Below are positions 43,282-62,025 of a DNA stretch of 64,000 bases, piece by piece. Source of the stretch: an uncultured Acidobacteriia bacterium (GTDB taxonomy: Bacteria > Acidobacteriota > Terriglobia > Bryobacterales > Bryobacteraceae); contig CAIYVZ010000067.1 in the NCBI GenBank assembly GCA_903929755.1, positions 1 to 64,000 on the forward strand. Reading direction: 5' to 3'. Position 1 is the stretch's first letter. Each line of letters starts with the position of its first letter. Under the pieces are notes generated by a model. The model ran no database searches and was not told the DNA's origin. It worked only from the letters and a program-made list of their open reading frames with translations. A program made the translations under genes and the position numbers.

Positions 43282-43361
43282 CTGCGGGCGCGCCAGGCGC
43301 GATATCGTAGGCTTGATGAGCCATTGCAGGATATGGACTCGAAATTGCTCTAGGAGTTCAG

Positions 43362-44663
43362 ATGCACAACGCTACATCCGGGTCAAATGCCGCAGCAGGA
43401 ACCCCGGCAACTGCAGGCGGGGCGGGGCAACAAGCCGCAGGGTCAAATACAGCAGCCGCAGGGTTAAATACAGCAGCCGCAGGGTTAAGTGCAGCAATGG
43501 GTGAGCGCCGCATCCGGGAAATTCTGGATGCCGCTCCTGACGCCATCCTGCAGGTTGACCAACAGGGCCGCATTATCCTGCTCAACCGCGCTACGGAGAA
43601 AATGTTCGGCTATGACCGCACCGATTTGCTGGGTCAACCGGTAGAGATTCTGATCCCGGAAGAAGTGCGCCCGCGACACCATGGTCACCGGGCCGGCTAC
43701 GAAAACCACGCTTCCATCCGGCCAATGGGTATCGGCATGCAGCTGGAAGGGCTGCGACGGGACGGTTCGCGGTTTCCCGTAGAAATCAGCCTCAGTCCGT
43801 CAGAGTCGCCCGAAATGGGCTTCACCACCACCGCCATCATTCGCGATATCACGGAGCGAAAGCTTGTGGAAGCGCGTTTCAGCGCGGCGCAGGAGAAGTA
43901 CACGGGCGATCTGATTGAAGCCAATCAGCAACTGGAAGTGCAAAACCGGGAAATTGAGCGCGCCAACCGCCTGAAGAGCGAGTTTCTGGCCAGCATGAGC
44001 CACGAACTTCGCACGCCGCTGCACACCATCATCGGATTTTCTGAATTGCTCGGCGAAGAACTCCACGGCTTCCTGACGGAAAAGCAAAAGCGGTTCGTCG
44101 GCCATATCCACACGGACTCATTGCACCTGCTGGACCTGATTAACGATATTCTGGATCTCAGCAAGATAGAAGCCGGACGCTTGGAGCTGCGGCCGGAGCC
44201 CTTCGATTTTGCAGCGCTGGTAGCAGAGAGCATGGCGTCGGTACGAACCGTAACAAGGGCAAAATCCCTCGGGACCGAGGCCAACATTCAGGTGGATGGC
44301 GCCGTGGAAGCAGACCGTGTAAGGGTGAAGCAGATCCTGGTGAACCTGTTGAGTAACGCCGCGAAATTTACACCCCACAGCGGCCACATCCGCGTGGATG
44401 CGAAGACGGTAGATGGTTTCCTGGTAACCTCCGTGACGGACACCGGCGTGGGCATCGCCCCGGAAGAGCACGAAGCGATCTTCGATCAGTTCTATCAGAC
44501 CGGCGTCACTACAAGAGGCGTGCGGGAAGGCACGGGCCTGGGTCTTGCGATCACCCGGAGGCTTGTCCACGGCCACGGAGGCACCATCAACGTGGAGAGT
44601 ACGCCGGGCAAGGGTAGTTTCTTCACCTTTACGGTTCCCATGCGCCCCCGGAGGGATGCGTGA
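43362..44663 (+). CDS. PAS-domain sensor histidine kinase
   Basis: 433 residues with no transmembrane helix, hence cytoplasmic. Residues 1-45 are an Ala/Gly linker encoded by a 21-bp DNA repeat (AAAGLNT). A PAS domain follows (about 48-165, ILDAAPDAILQVDQQGRIIL), a coiled stalk, the HisKA domain with phospho-His in ASMSHELRTPLH near 214, and the HATPase domain with N box LVNLLSNAAKFTP near 327, G1 DTGVGIAPEE near 366 and G2 GTGLGLAIT near 395. First gene of a kinase-receiver-activator operon; its stop overlaps the receiver start by 4 bp. The PAS ligand (haem, flavin or other) is not determined. Confidence 0.95.
   Translation: MHNATSGSNAAAGTPATAGGAGQQAAGSNTAAAGLNTAAAGLSAAMGERRIREILDAAPDAILQVDQQGRIILLNRATEKMFGYDRTDLLGQPVEILIPEEVRPRHHGHRAGYENHASIRPMGIGMQLEGLRRDGSRFPVEISLSPSESPEMGFTTTAIIRDITERKLVEARFSAAQEKYTGDLIEANQQLEVQNREIERANRLKSEFLASMSHELRTPLHTIIGFSELLGEELHGFLTEKQKRFVGHIHTDSLHLLDLINDILDLSKIEAGRLELRPEPFDFAALVAESMASVRTVTRAKSLGTEANIQVDGAVEADRVRVKQILVNLLSNAAKFTPHSGHIRVDAKTVDGFLVTSVTDTGVGIAPEEHEAIFDQFYQTGVTTRGVREGTGLGLAITRRLVHGHGGTINVESTPGKGSFFTFTVPMRPRRDA
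43443..43505 (+). repeat. 21-bp tandem repeat encoding the kinase N-terminal linker
   Basis: Two near-identical 21-bp units (43443-43463 and 43464-43484, one base different) and a third, diverged unit to 43505, read in frame as repeats of AAAGLNT or similar. Adds low-complexity length before the PAS domain. Confidence 0.85.
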
Positions 44664-45058
44664 AGAAGATCCTGGTTGCCGACGACCGAGCCATCAGCCG
44701 AGAGTTGGTTCGAAGCGTTCTGGAAAGTTGCGGTTATGAGGTCTACGAAGCGGCGGATGGTCTGGAAGCCCTGGAGCAGGCGCACCAGGTTCACCCCGAC
44801 GTCATTATTCTGGATCTGCAAATGCCCCGTCTGGATGGTTTCGGGGTGGTGAGCGAACTGCGCCGTGACCCCGCGTTTGAGCATGTACCTGTGATGGCGC
44901 TCACGGCCAGCGCCATGACTGGTGACCGCGAACGTGCCCTGGCTTCAGGCTTTACCGGATATGTCGCTAAACCAATTCGCGTGGCAGCTCTCCGCGGAGA
45001 GGTGGAGCGAATGGTGGAATTAACAAGACCGTCAAGGGTTTCTGTTACTTCGAGTTAG
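44660..45058 (+). CDS. CheY-like response regulator
   Basis: 132 residues, receiver only. VADDRAIS has the acidic pair, phospho-Asp is in VIILDLQMPRLDG near 52, Thr in MALTASAM, Lys in YVAKPIRV. It starts at GTG 44660, overlapping the kinase stop by 4 bp, so the two are translationally coupled; the PAS kinase is its likely donor. Lacking an output domain, it may relay phosphate to or compete with the NtrC-type activator encoded 20 bp downstream, or act on another target. Confidence 0.93.
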   Translation: MKKILVADDRAISRELVRSVLESCGYEVYEAADGLEALEQAHQVHPDVIILDLQMPRLDGFGVVSELRRDPAFEHVPVMALTASAMTGDRERALASGFTGYVAKPIRVAALRGEVERMVELTRPSRVSVTSS

Positions 45059-45078: not shown

Positions 45079-46521
45079 ATGCCCGCCTTGAATGCCCTGT
45101 CGCTCCTGATCATTGATGACAACCCCGGTAGCCTGGAACTTCTGGCTACCGCGCTGGAATTGCCCGGGCTGGAAATCCTTACCGCCTCCGACCCTGAAGT
45201 AGGCCTGGACCTCGTTTTTTCGCGTCATCCCCAGATTGTCCTCACCGACCTGGTGATGCCAAAACTGAGCGGAATCGACGTCCTGGACCGCATCATGGAG
45301 TTCGATCCATCGATTGATGTGATCCTCATGACCGCGCATTATTCCACCGAATCTGCTGTGGAAGCGATCCGGAAAGGGGCCTCCGATTACCTGAACAAGC
45401 CCGTTTCCGTGGTTGCGCTTCGGGAGCGCATCGGAGCGTTCGTGGATACGGCCCGGAAGCGTGGCCGGAGCGCGCAACTGGAAGATGAACTCGCCGCCAC
45501 CGCCGAGTTCGAAGGGATTGTGGGGAATAGTTCCCTGATGTGGGAAATGTTTTCCCGGATCCGCCGCATTTCGCCGCATTACCGGACCACGCTCTTAACC
45601 GGCCAAACCGGAACGGGTAAGGACCTGGTTGCCCGCGCCCTGCACCGCCTTAGCCCCGTCGCACAGGGCCGCTACGTTGTGCTGAACTGCTCGGCAGTTG
45701 TTGAAACCCTTTTTGAAAGTGAATTGTTTGGCCATGTCCGCGGCTCCTTCACGGGCGCCACCGTTGACAAAGCGGGGTTATTCGAGCATGCCAGCGGCGG
45801 AACGCTGTTCCTGGATGAAATCGGGGACATGCCCCTGTCAACCCAGGCAAAGTTGCTTCGGGTCCTGCAAAACCAGGAAGTGCAGCGTGTGGGGTCACTG
45901 GTGCCAAAGAAAGTGGACGTTCGGGTGATTGCCGCCACGAATCACGATCTCCGCGCCGCAGTAGCGGAAAAACGATTCCGGGAGGATCTGTTCTACCGGC
46001 TCTCCATGGTGGAAATCATGCTCCCGCCGCTGGCCGAGCGCAAGGAAGATCTTGCCCTGCTGGAACGACACTTTGTCGCCAAGTTCGCCGCGCAGTTTCA
46101 CAAAGAGATTCGTGGCCTGACGCATCGGGCCCGGACGGTGCTGGCCAGCCACGGCTGGCCGGGCAATGTGCGTGAACTTGAAAACGTGATTGGCCACGCC
46201 TGCATGATGGTAATGGGTGACACCGTGGACGTGGGTGATCTGCCGCCCTATCTCCACGGCTCTCATGGTGGCGGTCATGACTTCCAGGATTTTGCCCCGG
46301 CAATTTCGCCGGGTCTTGCGCCCATGGGCGCAGCGCAAGCAATCTCGTCCGGAGATATGGCCGGCGAGTTCCATAACGCCCTGGATGAGCAGGAAAAAAC
46401 CATTATCCAGAAAGCTATGCAGACTGCCGGGGGCAACCAGTCCCAGGCCGCGCGGCTTCTGCGGATCGGTCGGGATGCGTTGCGCTACAAGTTGAAGAAA
46501 CACGGTCTGGCCGGCGGGTAA
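45079..46521 (+). CDS. NtrC-family sigma54-dependent response regulator
   Basis: 480 residues in three modules. Receiver: DDNPGSLELL and phospho-Asp in IVLTDLVMPKLSG near 57, Lys in YLNKPVS near 108. AAA+ domain: Walker A GQTGTGKD near 175, sigma54-contact loop GSFTGA near 222 (usual consensus GAFTGA), Walker B FLDEIGDM near 243, arginine finger region RFREDLFYRLSMVEI near 300. Fis-type helix-turn-helix at 445-475 (NQSQAARLLRIGRDALRYKL). The Ala-to-Ser change in the GAFTGA loop is tolerated in some activators. Last gene of the kinase operon. Two sigma54 promoters at 46532 and 48740 are candidate targets. Confidence 0.96.
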   Translation: MPALNALSLLIIDDNPGSLELLATALELPGLEILTASDPEVGLDLVFSRHPQIVLTDLVMPKLSGIDVLDRIMEFDPSIDVILMTAHYSTESAVEAIRKGASDYLNKPVSVVALRERIGAFVDTARKRGRSAQLEDELAATAEFEGIVGNSSLMWEMFSRIRRISPHYRTTLLTGQTGTGKDLVARALHRLSPVAQGRYVVLNCSAVVETLFESELFGHVRGSFTGATVDKAGLFEHASGGTLFLDEIGDMPLSTQAKLLRVLQNQEVQRVGSLVPKKVDVRVIAATNHDLRAAVAEKRFREDLFYRLSMVEIMLPPLAERKEDLALLERHFVAKFAAQFHKEIRGLTHRARTVLASHGWPGNVRELENVIGHACMMVMGDTVDVGDLPPYLHGSHGGGHDFQDFAPAISPGLAPMGAAQAISSGDMAGEFHNALDEQEKTIIQKAMQTAGGNQSQAARLLRIGRDALRYKLKKHGLAGG

Positions 46522-46531
46522 CCTTGCCGAA

Positions 46532-46548
46532 TGGCATGGCGTTTGCAA
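46532..46548 (+). promoter_or_regulatory. Sigma54 (-24/-12) promoter
   Basis: TGGCAT-GGCGT-TTGCAA: GG at 46533-46534 and GC at 46545-46546 are exactly 12 positions apart, as sigma54 requires. It lies 10 bp after the NtrC-type activator gene. Transcription would start near 46558, just before GAGGT and the small ORF at 46572. Confidence 0.75.
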
Positions 46549-46571
46549 AGTTTCTTCCGAGGTAACACTCC

Positions 46572-46748
46572 ATGGCAAAGGATGAAACAACGCAGATCAG
46601 TCCGGATACGGTAAAACACCCCCCCAAAGCCGTTCCCGCCTTCCAGGCCGCCGATCAAGTCCTGATCCCCGGCCCTGGTCCCGGTCCGGGGCTTCCGGTG
46701 CCCCTGGCCCTGGCAGCGGTGGCCACGGGAACGGAAACTCCCCCGTAA
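46572..46748 (+). CDS. Small Gly/Pro-rich protein of 58 residues (unrecognised), sigma54-driven
   Basis: ATG 46572 follows GAGGT by 8 bases and the frame runs MAKDETTQISPDTVKHPPKA to TPP and stops TAA at 46746. The middle has a striking LIPGPGPGPGLPVPLALA segment: PG repeats then a hydrophobic run, which could be a short membrane or secretion element. No homology recognised. It sits alone in a transcription unit bounded by a sigma54 promoter and a perfect terminator. If the start of transcription is near 46558, the untranslated leader is only about 14 bases and the ribosome site lies at its 5' edge; the unit could also be a small RNA. Called as protein because frame, ribosome site and stop agree. 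Confidence 0.6.
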   Translation: MAKDETTQISPDTVKHPPKAVPAFQAADQVLIPGPGPGPGLPVPLALAAVATGTETPP

Positions 46749-46750
46749 TA

Positions 46751-46781
46751 AAAAGGCCGCAGCTCCTCGCTGCGGCCTTTT
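46751..46781. terminator. Bidirectional intrinsic terminator
   Basis: AAAAGGCCGCAG (46751-46762), loop CTCCTCG, CTGCGGCCTTTT (46770-46781): a perfect 12-bp stem. The A and T ends make it work for the small sigma54 gene on the plus strand and for the cytochrome gene on the minus strand. Confidence 0.9.
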
Positions 46782-46802
46782 CAAATCAGCTTGCCAGTTC
46801 AG

Positions 46803-47126
46803 CTACTTCTTCAAAGAACGAACGTGAGCAATGACGTCGTCAACCGCAGGGCCGGTGACGCCGGTTGAGGCCTTCATCTTGCCCTTGCCCTCGGTAATAA
46901 TCTTTTTCAGCTCGGCAGTGCTCAGAGTCTGTACTTCCGCAGACCCCAAACCTTTCATCTCTACCTTAAACATCTTCGCCATGGCGGCGTTCGCCGTCCC
47001 GTCGGCTCCGTGACAGGACTTGCACGACTTATCGTACGCAGCCTGACCAGCCTTCGCATCAGCGGCGGCGGAAATACCGGCTCCGGCCAGCAGAGCGATG
47101 ATTGCGGTTCCAATTAGTTTCTTCAT
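46803..47126 (-). CDS. Small monohaem cytochrome c
   Basis: 107 residues: signal peptide KLIGTAIIALLAGAGISAAA, one haem motif CKSCHGADG near 36 with a Met ligand in GKMKASTG near 85, and the C-terminal helix VDDVIAHVRSLKK. A typical class I periplasmic electron carrier. A strong ribosome site (AAGGAAAGGA) and a TATAAT box lie upstream. It is 47 bp from the six-haem NapC-like gene on the same strand and could accept electrons from it. Confidence 0.95.
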   Translation of the reverse strand: MKKLIGTAIIALLAGAGISAAADAKAGQAAYDKSCKSCHGADGTANAAMAKMFKVEMKGLGSAEVQTLSTAELKKIITEGKGKMKASTGVTGPAVDDVIAHVRSLKK

Positions 47127-47150
47127 GAGAGTTCCTTTCCTTAGTTAGAA

Positions 47151-47156
47151 ATTATA
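47151..47156 (-). promoter_or_regulatory. Sigma70 -10 box for the monohaem cytochrome
   Basis: The minus strand has a perfect TATAAT about 25 bases upstream of the ATG at 47126. The -35 region is weak. Confidence 0.4.
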
Positions 47157-47173
47157 GTTTGCCTGACTTGCAG

Positions 47174-48592
47174 CTACCTCATTGCGGTAGAAATTCCAAG
47201 ATCCTTCAGGACGGGAGGATCCTTCTCTTCCACTGCCAGCGTCCGGTGGCACGTCTCGCAGTCATTCGAGGCCGTCTTTCCATCCGCCGTACTATGGTCG
47301 CCGTCATGGCACCGGAAGCACCCAGGCGACGCCATATGGCCAAGGTTGGTGGGGTAAGTGCCCCACGTGACCTGGAGTTCCGGGAATACGTTGTGCCGAT
47401 ACATCGCGATTAGCGCCGCTCCGGCCCGCGTAATGTCCGGCTGTTGCGCAGCGAACACCTGCGGATACTTCTGTTTGTAGAAGTCTTCGAAAGCCGCAGG
47501 AATCTTGCGTCCCGCCTCGTCCGCGCTGGCATACTTTGCCTGAATCAGGGCCACCGCCGTCTTCTTGGCAAACGGCAGCGACGGATTCAATTCGCCGGAC
47601 GCCAGCGCACGGTCCACGGCTCTGTCGGGCAGTTCAAAAGAGTGCGCCACCCGATTGTGGCAATCAGCGCACTGCATCACGAAAGTCCGCAGGTTCTTGG
47701 TGGACGCATCGGTGGAGCCAGCCGCCAGGAACGTTCTGTTAATGCCGGTTTTCGTATTCTTGTACTCCACGCGGGGGATCGTCTGGCGCTTATTGTCGGT
47801 GGCGAAGTAGCGGATCGAGATTCCGGGAGCCAGGTGCGCTCCGTGGATGCCCCCGGACGCCCCGCCCCCAACGCGCATCATCAGGACGGTCTCAGACCTC
47901 GTATTGGCCTCGTCTTCCGCGAATTTCGGGAGAATCCGGAACCGGGGTCCCAGCGTGGTTTCGCGGGCATGGCACACTTCACAGGTTTCCGAAGAAGACG
48001 CTGCGCCTTCCTGCCCAGGGATGTAGTCAATCGGGCGCTGAAAGTTATCCATCAGAGCGCCCACCAGACGTCGCGTCCCGGCCGTTTTTGCCTTAAAATA
48101 GCCGGTTGCGCCGGGAGACACATGGCAACTAACGCAGGCGACGCGCAGGTGCGGCGGTCTTGTATGGGAGGTGAATTGGGGCGTCATGGCGTGGCAGGTT
48201 TGTCCGCAAAACTGCTGCGTATCCATATGTTCCACCGCACGGTAGGTAAGTTGGCCGCCGACCAGGACATTAATTGCGGTCACGACGCCGAAGAAAATGA
48301 TGGCTTTGCGCCAGGCGGCTCTGCGGTCCGTCACACCCGTCATTACCGCGCCTCCGGAGCGCCGGGCGATGAAAAGCCCCACCGGAATCACTAACAGGCC
48401 TAACAATAAGGCGGCCGGAATTATGAGGAACGCGAGCAACCCGCTATAAGGGTTACTCGCCTGGCCGGACATGTGCACAGGGATGAGGAACAGCAGCACG
48501 ACAGCCGCGAGGACAACCAGTGCCGAACCCGCCATCGTAATCCAGTTGGCGGTGAGCAGGATCAGTATAGGGCGATATGGTTTATCAGACAT
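47174..48592 (-). CDS. Membrane-anchored multihaem c-type cytochrome (NapC/NirT-like N-terminus)
   Basis: Start ATG 48592 (MSDKPYRPILILL); ATG 48601 is an alternative. 472 residues. Three N-terminal helices (about 8-35, 45-72, 93-112) then haem motifs: CGQTCH (CX3CH, followed by a possible Met in HAM, as in NapC/NrfH proteins), CVSCH, CEVCH, CADCH, CFRCH and CETCH, six in all. The first two lie in a NapC/NirT-like domain with TSHTRPPHLRVACVSCHVSP. Predicted to take electrons from the quinol pool and pass them to periplasmic partners, perhaps the neighbouring cytochrome. A weak sigma54-like site overlaps its upstream region. Confidence 0.9.
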   Translation of the reverse strand: MSDKPYRPILILLTANWITMAGSALVVLAAVVLLFLIPVHMSGQASNPYSGLLAFLIIPAALLLGLLVIPVGLFIARRSGGAVMTGVTDRRAAWRKAIIFFGVVTAINVLVGGQLTYRAVEHMDTQQFCGQTCHAMTPQFTSHTRPPHLRVACVSCHVSPGATGYFKAKTAGTRRLVGALMDNFQRPIDYIPGQEGAASSSETCEVCHARETTLGPRFRILPKFAEDEANTRSETVLMMRVGGGASGGIHGAHLAPGISIRYFATDNKRQTIPRVEYKNTKTGINRTFLAAGSTDASTKNLRTFVMQCADCHNRVAHSFELPDRAVDRALASGELNPSLPFAKKTAVALIQAKYASADEAGRKIPAAFEDFYKQKYPQVFAAQQPDITRAGAALIAMYRHNVFPELQVTWGTYPTNLGHMASPGCFRCHDGDHSTADGKTASNDCETCHRTLAVEEKDPPVLKDLGISTAMR

Positions 48593-48627: not shown

Positions 48628-48739
48628 AACTAAAGTCGGGAAAACTCCGCTCCTCACCTCCCAAATTTGCCGTGCGCCTAACCGCGCAACACCCGCGAAC
48701 CCGCTGCGCTATTTGACCCGAATCAGGATCGCTGGCGAT

Positions 48740-48756
48740 TGGCAGAAAGATTGCAC
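48740..48756 (+). promoter_or_regulatory. Sigma54 (-24/-12) promoter of the universal stress protein
   Basis: TTGGCAG-AAAGA-TTGCAC: GG at 48741-48742 and GC at 48753-48754, spacing 12. The predicted transcription start is near 48766, followed by GAGGT (48774) and GTG start 48784 in the right order. Confidence 0.8.
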
Positions 48757-48783: not shown

Positions 48784-49647
48784 GTGTTGTCCATCCGTCA
48801 TATTTTGTTCCCCGTCGATTTTTCGGACCGCAGTTACGCCACGGTACCGTACGTTGCCGCCAAAGCTCGCGACTTCGGAGCCAAAGTTAGTATGCTGGCC
48901 GTTGTCCGGCCCGTGATTCTGACAGGCATGGAGGCGGCAAGTGCCGCCTTTGTGGATCCCGAAGAATTACGCTTCGCTGTACAGAGCCGGCTGGATGAGT
49001 TCGCACCGGATGCTTTTGAAGGCGTTGACCTGGAACGCATTGCGGTGGTGGGCGATCCGGCCGACGCCATTATCGAGTTTGCGCACCTGCACCAGACAGA
49101 CCTGATCATGATGCCGACGCACGGCTATGGTCCCTTCCGCAGGCTGCTGCTGGGTTCGGTAACGGCAAAGGTTCTGCACGATGTCTCCTGCCCCGTCTGG
49201 ACGGATGCTCACGTAGAACATACGCCGGCTCACTACCATCTGAAATCCCGAGCCATTCTGTGCGCTGTCGATGATTCGCCCCGCGCCCTGGAAGTCATGA
49301 AGTGGGCAGCAGAACTATCCCGCCACATGGGCGCCAAGCTTCATATGGTCCACGTGGTGCCAGGAACCGGTACTTTTCTGGAGGCAGAGCTGGGGGTTGA
49401 GGTGGAACTCGCCATGCGGGATCGCATGGAGAAGAAACTGGACGATATTCGCAAACGGGCCGGAATTGAAACCACCATCCATGTGGCGGCGGGCGAAGTC
49501 GCCGACCGGGTTCGGGCTGAGGCGGAACGTTTCAATTCGGACCTGCTGGTGATCGGGCGGGGCGTCCTGCATGAGAAACTGGGACGCCTGCGGACGCATG
49601 CCCACTCCATCATCCGGCATGCCCCCTGCCCCGTCATCAGCATTTAG
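48784..49647 (+). CDS. Tandem universal stress protein
   Basis: From GTG 48784 (GAGGT 5 bases upstream) it has 287 residues and two UspA domains. Domain 1 (1-145) opens LSIRHILFPVDFSDRSY and has an ATP-loop-like GYGPFRRLLLGSVTAKVLHD; domain 2 (about 150-287) opens RAILCAVDDSPRALEVMKWA and ends GRLRTHAHSIIRHAPCPVIS, where the glycine-rich loop is replaced by GRGVLHEKLGRL, so nucleotide binding by domain 2 is doubtful. Cytoplasmic stress protein. The sigma54 promoter links it to the NtrC-type activator 2 kb away. The initiation codon upstream at 48739 would precede the promoter and is rejected. Confidence 0.92.
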   Translation: MLSIRHILFPVDFSDRSYATVPYVAAKARDFGAKVSMLAVVRPVILTGMEAASAAFVDPEELRFAVQSRLDEFAPDAFEGVDLERIAVVGDPADAIIEFAHLHQTDLIMMPTHGYGPFRRLLLGSVTAKVLHDVSCPVWTDAHVEHTPAHYHLKSRAILCAVDDSPRALEVMKWAAELSRHMGAKLHMVHVVPGTGTFLEAELGVEVELAMRDRMEKKLDDIRKRAGIETTIHVAAGEVADRVRAEAERFNSDLLVIGRGVLHEKLGRLRTHAHSIIRHAPCPVISI

Positions 49648-61350: not shown

Positions 61351-62025
61351 TCAGAGACCCGGTTCCCGCCAAAGCGATTCAGCGTCGGATCTGCGGACAT
61401 AATTCGCTTCTACCGAAGCTGGTTCGCCGGGCTCGCCGCTGCGGACGCGCGCCTCCGCAATCTGACCGATGGCCGAGGCCAGCCCGCGAGGCGCCAGACA
61501 TACGGGCAGGTGAGCAAAGCGCGTGCCCGTAAGAGCGGGAAGAAAGGGTTCAAAGTCCGTAGTGACCCACTCGAAGTCGAGGGCGCCGAGAAGCTCCAGG
61601 AAGTGCGGGATGCGGATTACCTGATCATCAATAATGACCCTCCCGTCCGCAGCATAGAGGGCGGCAAACACCTCTCCGCGACGAGCATCAAGGACCGTTG
61701 CACGCAGCGGGGCCGAACTATGGTGGCTGAGGGCTTCCAGATTGGAAACCGGCACAGCACGCTTGCCCAGGACTTCGGCCAGGCCCTTCACTGCCGCCAG
61801 CCCAATCCGCACGCCGGTAAACGAACCCGGGCCCGAGGCGGCGGCAAACACGTCGATGTCCGCCAGCGAGAGCCCCGCGCGGTTGAGCAACGCGTCAATC
61901 TGTTGAAACAGCGTCCCGCTGAAGCCCTCGGGCGCATGCACCAGCGTCTCGGCCACCACATGGCCGTCCCGAACCAAAGCAAGGCTGCCGAACTCCGCAG
62001 TCGTATCCAGAGCAAGTGTCAGCAT
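61351..62025 (-). CDS. tsaB: tRNA threonylcarbamoyladenosine biosynthesis protein TsaB
   Basis: 224 residues, normal length. MLTLALDTTAEFGSLALV and AAASGPGSFTGVRIGLAAVK (residues about 60-80) are diagnostic of the TsaB ASKHA fold; TVLDARRGEVFAALY follows. TsaB scaffolds TsaD in making t6A37 in tRNA, an essential cytoplasmic modification. It starts immediately after the GH140-like gene stop (TAG then ATG), so it is probably co-transcribed. Its C-terminus (SVEANYVRRSDAESLWRE) is complete. Confidence 0.94.
   Translation of the reverse strand: MLTLALDTTAEFGSLALVRDGHVVAETLVHAPEGFSGTLFQQIDALLNRAGLSLADIDVFAAASGPGSFTGVRIGLAAVKGLAEVLGKRAVPVSNLEALSHHSSAPLRATVLDARRGEVFAALYAADGRVIIDDQVIRIPHFLELLGALDFEWVTTDFEPFLPALTGTRFAHLPVCLAPRGLASAIGQIAEARVRSGEPGEPASVEANYVRRSDAESLWREPGL

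Follow-up and report, generated by a model that had tools for sequence, protein, structure and literature searches.

Behind an NtrC-type response regulator gene in the 64,000-nucleotide stretch of Bryobacteraceae DNA analysed here (the window) lies a small gene that probably codes for a protein of a sigma54 stress regulon, descended from a DUF2934 ancestor whose tail it has kept. The gene looks like a shortened DUF2934 relative in which the domain was lost and the promoter and a conserved tail were kept, and on the sequence evidence it is best read as specifying a small protein that is restricted to this lineage and belongs to a sigma54/NtrC stress regulon. The first-pass annotation had described a compact unit at this place, and its sigma54-type site, GAGGT, 58-codon frame, TAA and hairpin are all present (Table 1). 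The product does contain, as was also pointed out, a Pro/Gly repeat followed by a hydrophobic run (PGPGPGPG-LPVPLALAAVA).

Table 1. Features of the small-gene locus and its neighbourhood in the window; G008 is the genome of a close relative.
Feature	Position	Strand	Remarks
PAS histidine kinase	43362-44663	+	domain match
Single-domain response regulator	44660-45058	+	domain match
NtrC-type response regulator	45079-46521	+	receiver, sigma54-interaction AAA, Fis-type HTH; 88-89% identical orthologue in G008
Sigma54-type promoter TGGCATGGCGTTTGCA	46532-46547	+	GG 46533-46534, GC 46545-46546; conserved in place in G008
Putative transcription start	46558	+	about 12 nt past the -12 GC, counted from the promoter
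Ribosome site GAGGT	46559-46563	+	8 nt before ATG; GGAGGT at the G008 counterpart
58-codon gene	46572-46748	+	ATG 46572, TAA 46746-46748; product without nearly all of the predicted DUF2934 hairpin of its G008 homologue
Conserved 37-residue C-terminal tail	46635-46745	+	20/37 identical to G008, dN/dS about 0.24
13-pair hairpin	46751-46781	.	possible terminator, common to the convergent cytochrome c gene
Second sigma54-type site TGGCAGAAAGATTGCA	48740-48755	+	G where the consensus has C; score 15.2
Universal-stress-protein gene	48784-49647	+	two Usp stretches; PF00582, E 1.4e-47

Sigma54 promoters carry a GG and a GC 10 nt apart within the consensus TGGCAYR-N4-TTGCW. The TGGCATGGCGTTTGCA site, 10 nt from the TAA of the NtrC-type gene, has the GG-N10-GC spacing and is an exact match to this pattern; the form restricted to TGGCAC has no match at the small-gene promoter. 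When both strands of the window were scored with a matrix of approximate weights, this was the top sigma54-type site (17.8 bits). A simple count of matches shows no abundance of such sites in the window: 26 had at least 9 of 12 matches (38.5 in shuffles), 10 had at least 10 (6.0 in shuffles) and 2 had at least 11 (0.8 in shuffles). Across the 6.86 Mb genome, the TGGCAYRNNNNTTGCW pattern was found 7 times and the reversed control pattern 4 times. Given these counts, a single promoter match is weak when taken alone. The call is strengthened by G008, where the counterpart TGGCACACCACGTGCT lies at an equal offset despite changes in the spacer and flanks. The window genome has one match to the sigma54 DNA-binding domain. 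With transcription starting near 46558, the leader would be about 14 nt long and would still include the GAGGT.

G008 is the genome of MAG WB8_3_068, a Terriglobia bacterium, and record RGPS01000002.1 matches its copy of the gene fully. In a search of 61 genomes with the NtrC-type regulator, G008 was the only one besides the regulator's own genome to give a near-identical match (89%), the next being at 70%. Gene order is kept in G008, with tblastn matches for 11 of the 12 window proteins tried; the 58-residue protein itself fell short of E 1e-3 in that comparison. The G008 locus contains additional DNA at some points, an example being about 2 kb behind its universal-stress-protein gene. A sigma54-type site is found 10 nt past the regulator stop in G008, followed by GGAGGT, ATG, a frame and a hairpin, so that promoter, ribosome site, ATG, stop and hairpin occupy matching places in the two genomes, behind the same NtrC-type gene. 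The two sites lie at -40 (window) and -42 (G008) relative to the start codon. Conservation of promoter and frame in this single close homologue supports the proposal that the small gene is sigma54-driven. Among 30 NtrC-type loci (L008-L037), a sigma54-type site 10 nt past the stop was seen in two, those of the window and G008; the L030 contig ends before the regulator stop and is uninformative on this point, and the remaining loci, many of which may not be orthologues, have scattered sites only. The G008 protein had no match at E 1e-3 in L008-L037 outside its own locus.

The G008 product (L009:3008-3313) is 101 residues long and matches DUF2934 (PF11154) with an E value of 8.1e-13 and 48.2 bits, against a cut-off of 22. 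The G008 orthologue is like the window gene in its place behind the NtrC-type gene, in the kind of promoter, in its tail and in its first residues, but differs in having this domain: the window protein has no PF11154 match at E 1. Relative to the G008 product, it has kept the start and the last 37 residues and lacks G008 residues 21-65, residues 9-24 being hardly alignable. An AlphaFold2 model of the G008 protein (26 sequences) has confident helices at residues 23-44 and 51-69 only, with a pLDDT below 50 for residues 1-22 and 72-101. By this model, the window product is without nearly all of the predicted folded DUF2934 helical hairpin. In alignment A3, 25 of the 26 members match DUF2934 at E 0.01, the odd one out being the window protein. 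Since DUF2934 is common to the wider family, a loss in the window lineage would be the simpler direction of change, as judged from two genomes. The gene had been called undescribed; this holds in so far as the 58-residue product has no Pfam match (E up to 1) and no NCBIfam match (E up to 0.1), but not in so far as its kinship with a DUF2934 gene can still be recognised, albeit without the domain. The HSP20/alpha-crystallin domain (PF00011) was not matched at E 1 by either the window or the G008 protein. The tail contains VLI/ILI, a possible counterpart of the I-x-I motif at the C-terminus of small heat-shock proteins. The predicted fold of the window protein is not confident (pLDDT 63.5, pTM 0.13, from a single sequence and weak). 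Elsewhere, L081:1498-1815 encodes a 105-residue DUF2934 protein that resembles a DUF2934-HSP20 fusion minus most of the alpha-crystallin part and has DUF2934 only in Pfam; it is a possible parallel case of domain loss.

The distribution of the small protein is narrow. Against 61 genomes it gave many weak matches, of which only that in G008 (E 1.1e-8) is convincing; the next best (E 9.4e-4) has a stop inside and was set aside. The tail is present in 2 of 237 genomes of the bacterial family, and no homologue beyond G008 was found in these 237 genomes and 399 of the class, two overlapping sets. A viral origin was also considered; the 58-residue protein had no relative among the viral contigs scanned.

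The first-pass annotation had left open whether the unit is a sigma54-driven small gene or a small RNA. The small gene is supported by the conservation of promoter and frame in one homologue, and the small RNA is disfavoured. If the transcript of about 225 nt acted as a regulatory RNA, the frame would be incidental, and the short leader and strong terminal hairpin would fit such a role. So would the finding that an ATG frame of at least 58 codons turned up in 408 of 5000 first-order shuffles of 46522-46802 (about 8%); the length of the frame is unremarkable alone, and its support is the pattern of changes relative to G008. The tails differ at 42 of 111 bases, with 22 of these changes at codon position 3, and the dN/dS check that had been proposed across homologues gave about 0.24 on the tail, with a dS of about 1.4, for window vs. 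G008 only (37 codons, one genome pair). Twenty tail residues are kept vs. 13.8 expected, a result as good being reached in 0.2% of 5000 permutations. The tail amino acids thus look constrained, consistent with purifying selection, although with one tail homologue this constraint rests on one pairwise comparison. The antisense frame sharing codon position 3 gave an equal tail identity (0.57 vs. 0.55), so the position-3 bias alone leaves the strand undecided; an antisense gene in this frame was rejected, as it has a stop in the window tail and stops elsewhere in G008. The body of the message is no more stably folded than its shuffled versions (z -0.30; 68 of 200 shuffles equally stable or more so), Rfam has no match to the transcript at gathering scores, and the ribosome site is kept in both genomes; the body fold, the constrained tail frame and the Rfam result all speak against a small regulatory RNA. 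Frameshifted homologues had been named as what would favour an RNA; the one homologue, in G008, has an intact frame, an outcome in favour of a protein. With the features and the end of the frame in place in G008 and the tail changes constrained, the small gene is most likely a protein gene rather than a regulatory RNA, and we consider the latter quite improbable.

Even as a protein gene, it might be decaying, a DUF2934 remnant still transcribed after deletion of its working domain but without function. The only confidently folded part is indeed gone, the distribution is very narrow, and the constraint could have acted chiefly along the G008 branch or before the loss. Against this, frame, promoter, ribosome site and hairpin are intact despite the high tail dS, and the changes in the tail look constrained, making decay unlikely in our view. 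The window comes from a draft genome in 212 contigs, whose consensus could in principle have dropped about 129 bases of the gene. Such an assembly artefact seems very improbable, as the absent block keeps the frame and has its ends near the domain edges, divergence is normal in the N-terminal and tail parts on either side, and the neighbourhood is otherwise in G008 order. The reading that we retain is the small protein gene with a DUF2934 ancestor.

The hairpin 3' of this gene has 13 pairs in the window (-24.1 kcal/mol, z -7.7) and is matched in G008 by one of -25.0 kcal/mol (z -6.7), with stem bases that differ from those of the window. A consensus terminator scanner called nothing on either strand, since the four U of the hairpin form the outer part of its 3' arm and no U run follows. 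Because the convergent cytochrome c gene ends at 46803, the hairpin may serve as a terminator shared by both genes.

The NtrC-type regulator is the likely activator of the small gene, judging by their neighbourhood only, and the PAS histidine kinase would be the probable source of the signal. The second sigma54-type site, TGGCAGAAAGATTGCA, is conserved in G008 as TGGCAGAAGGATTGCA amid diverged flanks. Of the sigma54 scores in the window, that of the small-gene site ranks first, and TGGCAGAAAGATTGCA is joint second with a minus-strand site at 61528. The universal-stress-protein gene behind it lies 2 kb from the small gene and has a GAGGT ribosome site in window and G008; its start is probably the GTG at 48784, the listed TTG at 48739 overlapping the promoter. 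No regulator-binding inverted repeat (6-bp dyad) was found upstream of the small gene in the window, nor any dyads shared upstream of both sigma54 genes; the same two genes in G008 gave one dyad, inside the regulator gene.

A search of 101 genomes with the G008 protein gave matches in 33, mostly DUF2934-like by sequence. All four of the matches checked in Pfam have DUF2934, and three of the four have HSP20 too. The DUF2934-HSP20 fusions (e.g. L094, L085, L101) have an N-terminus similar to the G008 form and, in some cases, a sigma54-type site upstream, as does the window gene; they differ from the window and G008 proteins in their alpha-crystallin domain. Within this bacterial family, we compared the 150 nt upstream of DUF2934-HSP20 genes with those upstream of plain HSP20 genes, the loci compared being part of the matches listed for the DUF2934-HSP20 search. 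From the 91 loci given, 86 yielded a protein, 63 of them DUF2934-like, as called with a profile built from the very proteins classified, and 23 plain; a cruder first grouping of the 91 had found no match for 6. The plain set consisted of 20 loci plus 5 from another set that proved plain. After filtering for length, upstream DNA and 75% identity, the comparison comprised 50 DUF2934-type and 16 plain genes. Pfam found DUF2934 (E 0.01) in all 24 wider-family segments given.

Sigma54-type sites of at least 11 bits were found upstream of 12 of the 50 dereplicated DUF2934-HSP20 genes (e.g. L094, L085, L097, L098, L101, L105, L126 and L127), vs. 2 of 50 on the reverse strand, a mean of 0.66 and a maximum of 3 in 100 shuffles, and none of the 16 plain HSP20 genes. 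At 9 bits or more, the count was 16 of 50 (reverse strand 3, shuffles 1.99, plain HSP20 1/16), with the best site of each of these 16 genes at -38 to -78 relative to the start, a range that also covers the window and G008 sites. In the remaining 34 of the 50, lowering the threshold to 9 bits still gave no sigma54-type site. DUF2934-HSP20 and plain HSP20 genes are only weakly separated, with P values of 0.05 at 9 bits, 0.03 at 11, 0.053 at 12 and 0.10 at 13. The excess of sites upstream of DUF2934-HSP20 genes suggests that regulation by sigma54 recurs across this gene family, and the window gene may have inherited it from an ancestor of this type. It should be noted that strong sites occur on both strands upstream of L155 (13.6 and 16.0 bits) and L094 (16.7 and 13.6 bits), perhaps marking divergent sigma54 promoters.

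We propose that the PAS kinase, sensing some cue, would phosphorylate the NtrC-type regulator encoded directly upstream of the small gene, and that this regulator would drive RNA polymerase-sigma54 at two promoters, those of the small gene and the universal-stress-protein gene. The product would be a short, largely unfolded cytosolic peptide whose conserved part is the tail. Its ancestor may have been a DUF2934 protein related to the DUF2934-HSP20 fusions, with the helical hairpin lost and the Gly/Pro-rich tail kept. As a guess, the tail might act as a short segment that docks onto another stress protein. A broader proposal, which we put forward tentatively and which may well not hold, is that a small protein was born here by subtraction, the folded domain being discarded and the disordered Gly/Pro-rich tail selected as the working part, in a regulon that joins DUF2934-HSP20 chaperones and universal stress proteins. 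If true, this would be an acidobacterial sigma54 regulon linking these two groups, and DUF2934 would be placed in a testable setting, namely a sigma54/NtrC stress regulon that also includes HSP20 domains and universal stress proteins. The two genomes would also provide an example of how a small protein may arise via domain loss, not from non-coding DNA. The value of the finding would lie in this domain loss and in the sigma54 link of the DUF2934-HSP20 genes.

Stress genes have been predicted under sigma54 elsewhere, as here: the predictions of a 2025 survey of sigma54 regulons include IbpA in a chaperone cluster and UspA in Planctomycetia, and the terms 'Acidobacteri', 'Hsp20' and 'DUF' are absent from its main text (PMC12316311). 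DUF2934 appears as a table entry in the RpuS/R regulon section of a Sinorhizobium paper (PMC9100948) and as a table entry in a vesicle proteome (PMC12285230). In Bradyrhizobium, the Hsp20 and universal stress proteins among the table entries considered are microoxia-induced and unmarked as NifA+RpoN targets, which argues against a general rule (PMC6515984). Literature searches, with subscription journals mostly outside their reach, found nothing linking Acidobacteria, sigma54 and Hsp20, nor Acidobacteria with sigma-54, a response regulator and a universal stress protein.

Two further observations concern the neighbouring genes. The minus strand at 46803-48592 encodes a small cytochrome c as well as a NapC/NirT-type multihaem cytochrome; these genes are convergent with the small gene and divergent from the universal-stress-protein gene, an order kept in G008. 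The start of the PAS kinase (about 43360-43500) has repeated Ala/Asn-rich units in translation, and the match of this kinase to G008 begins only at its residue 42.
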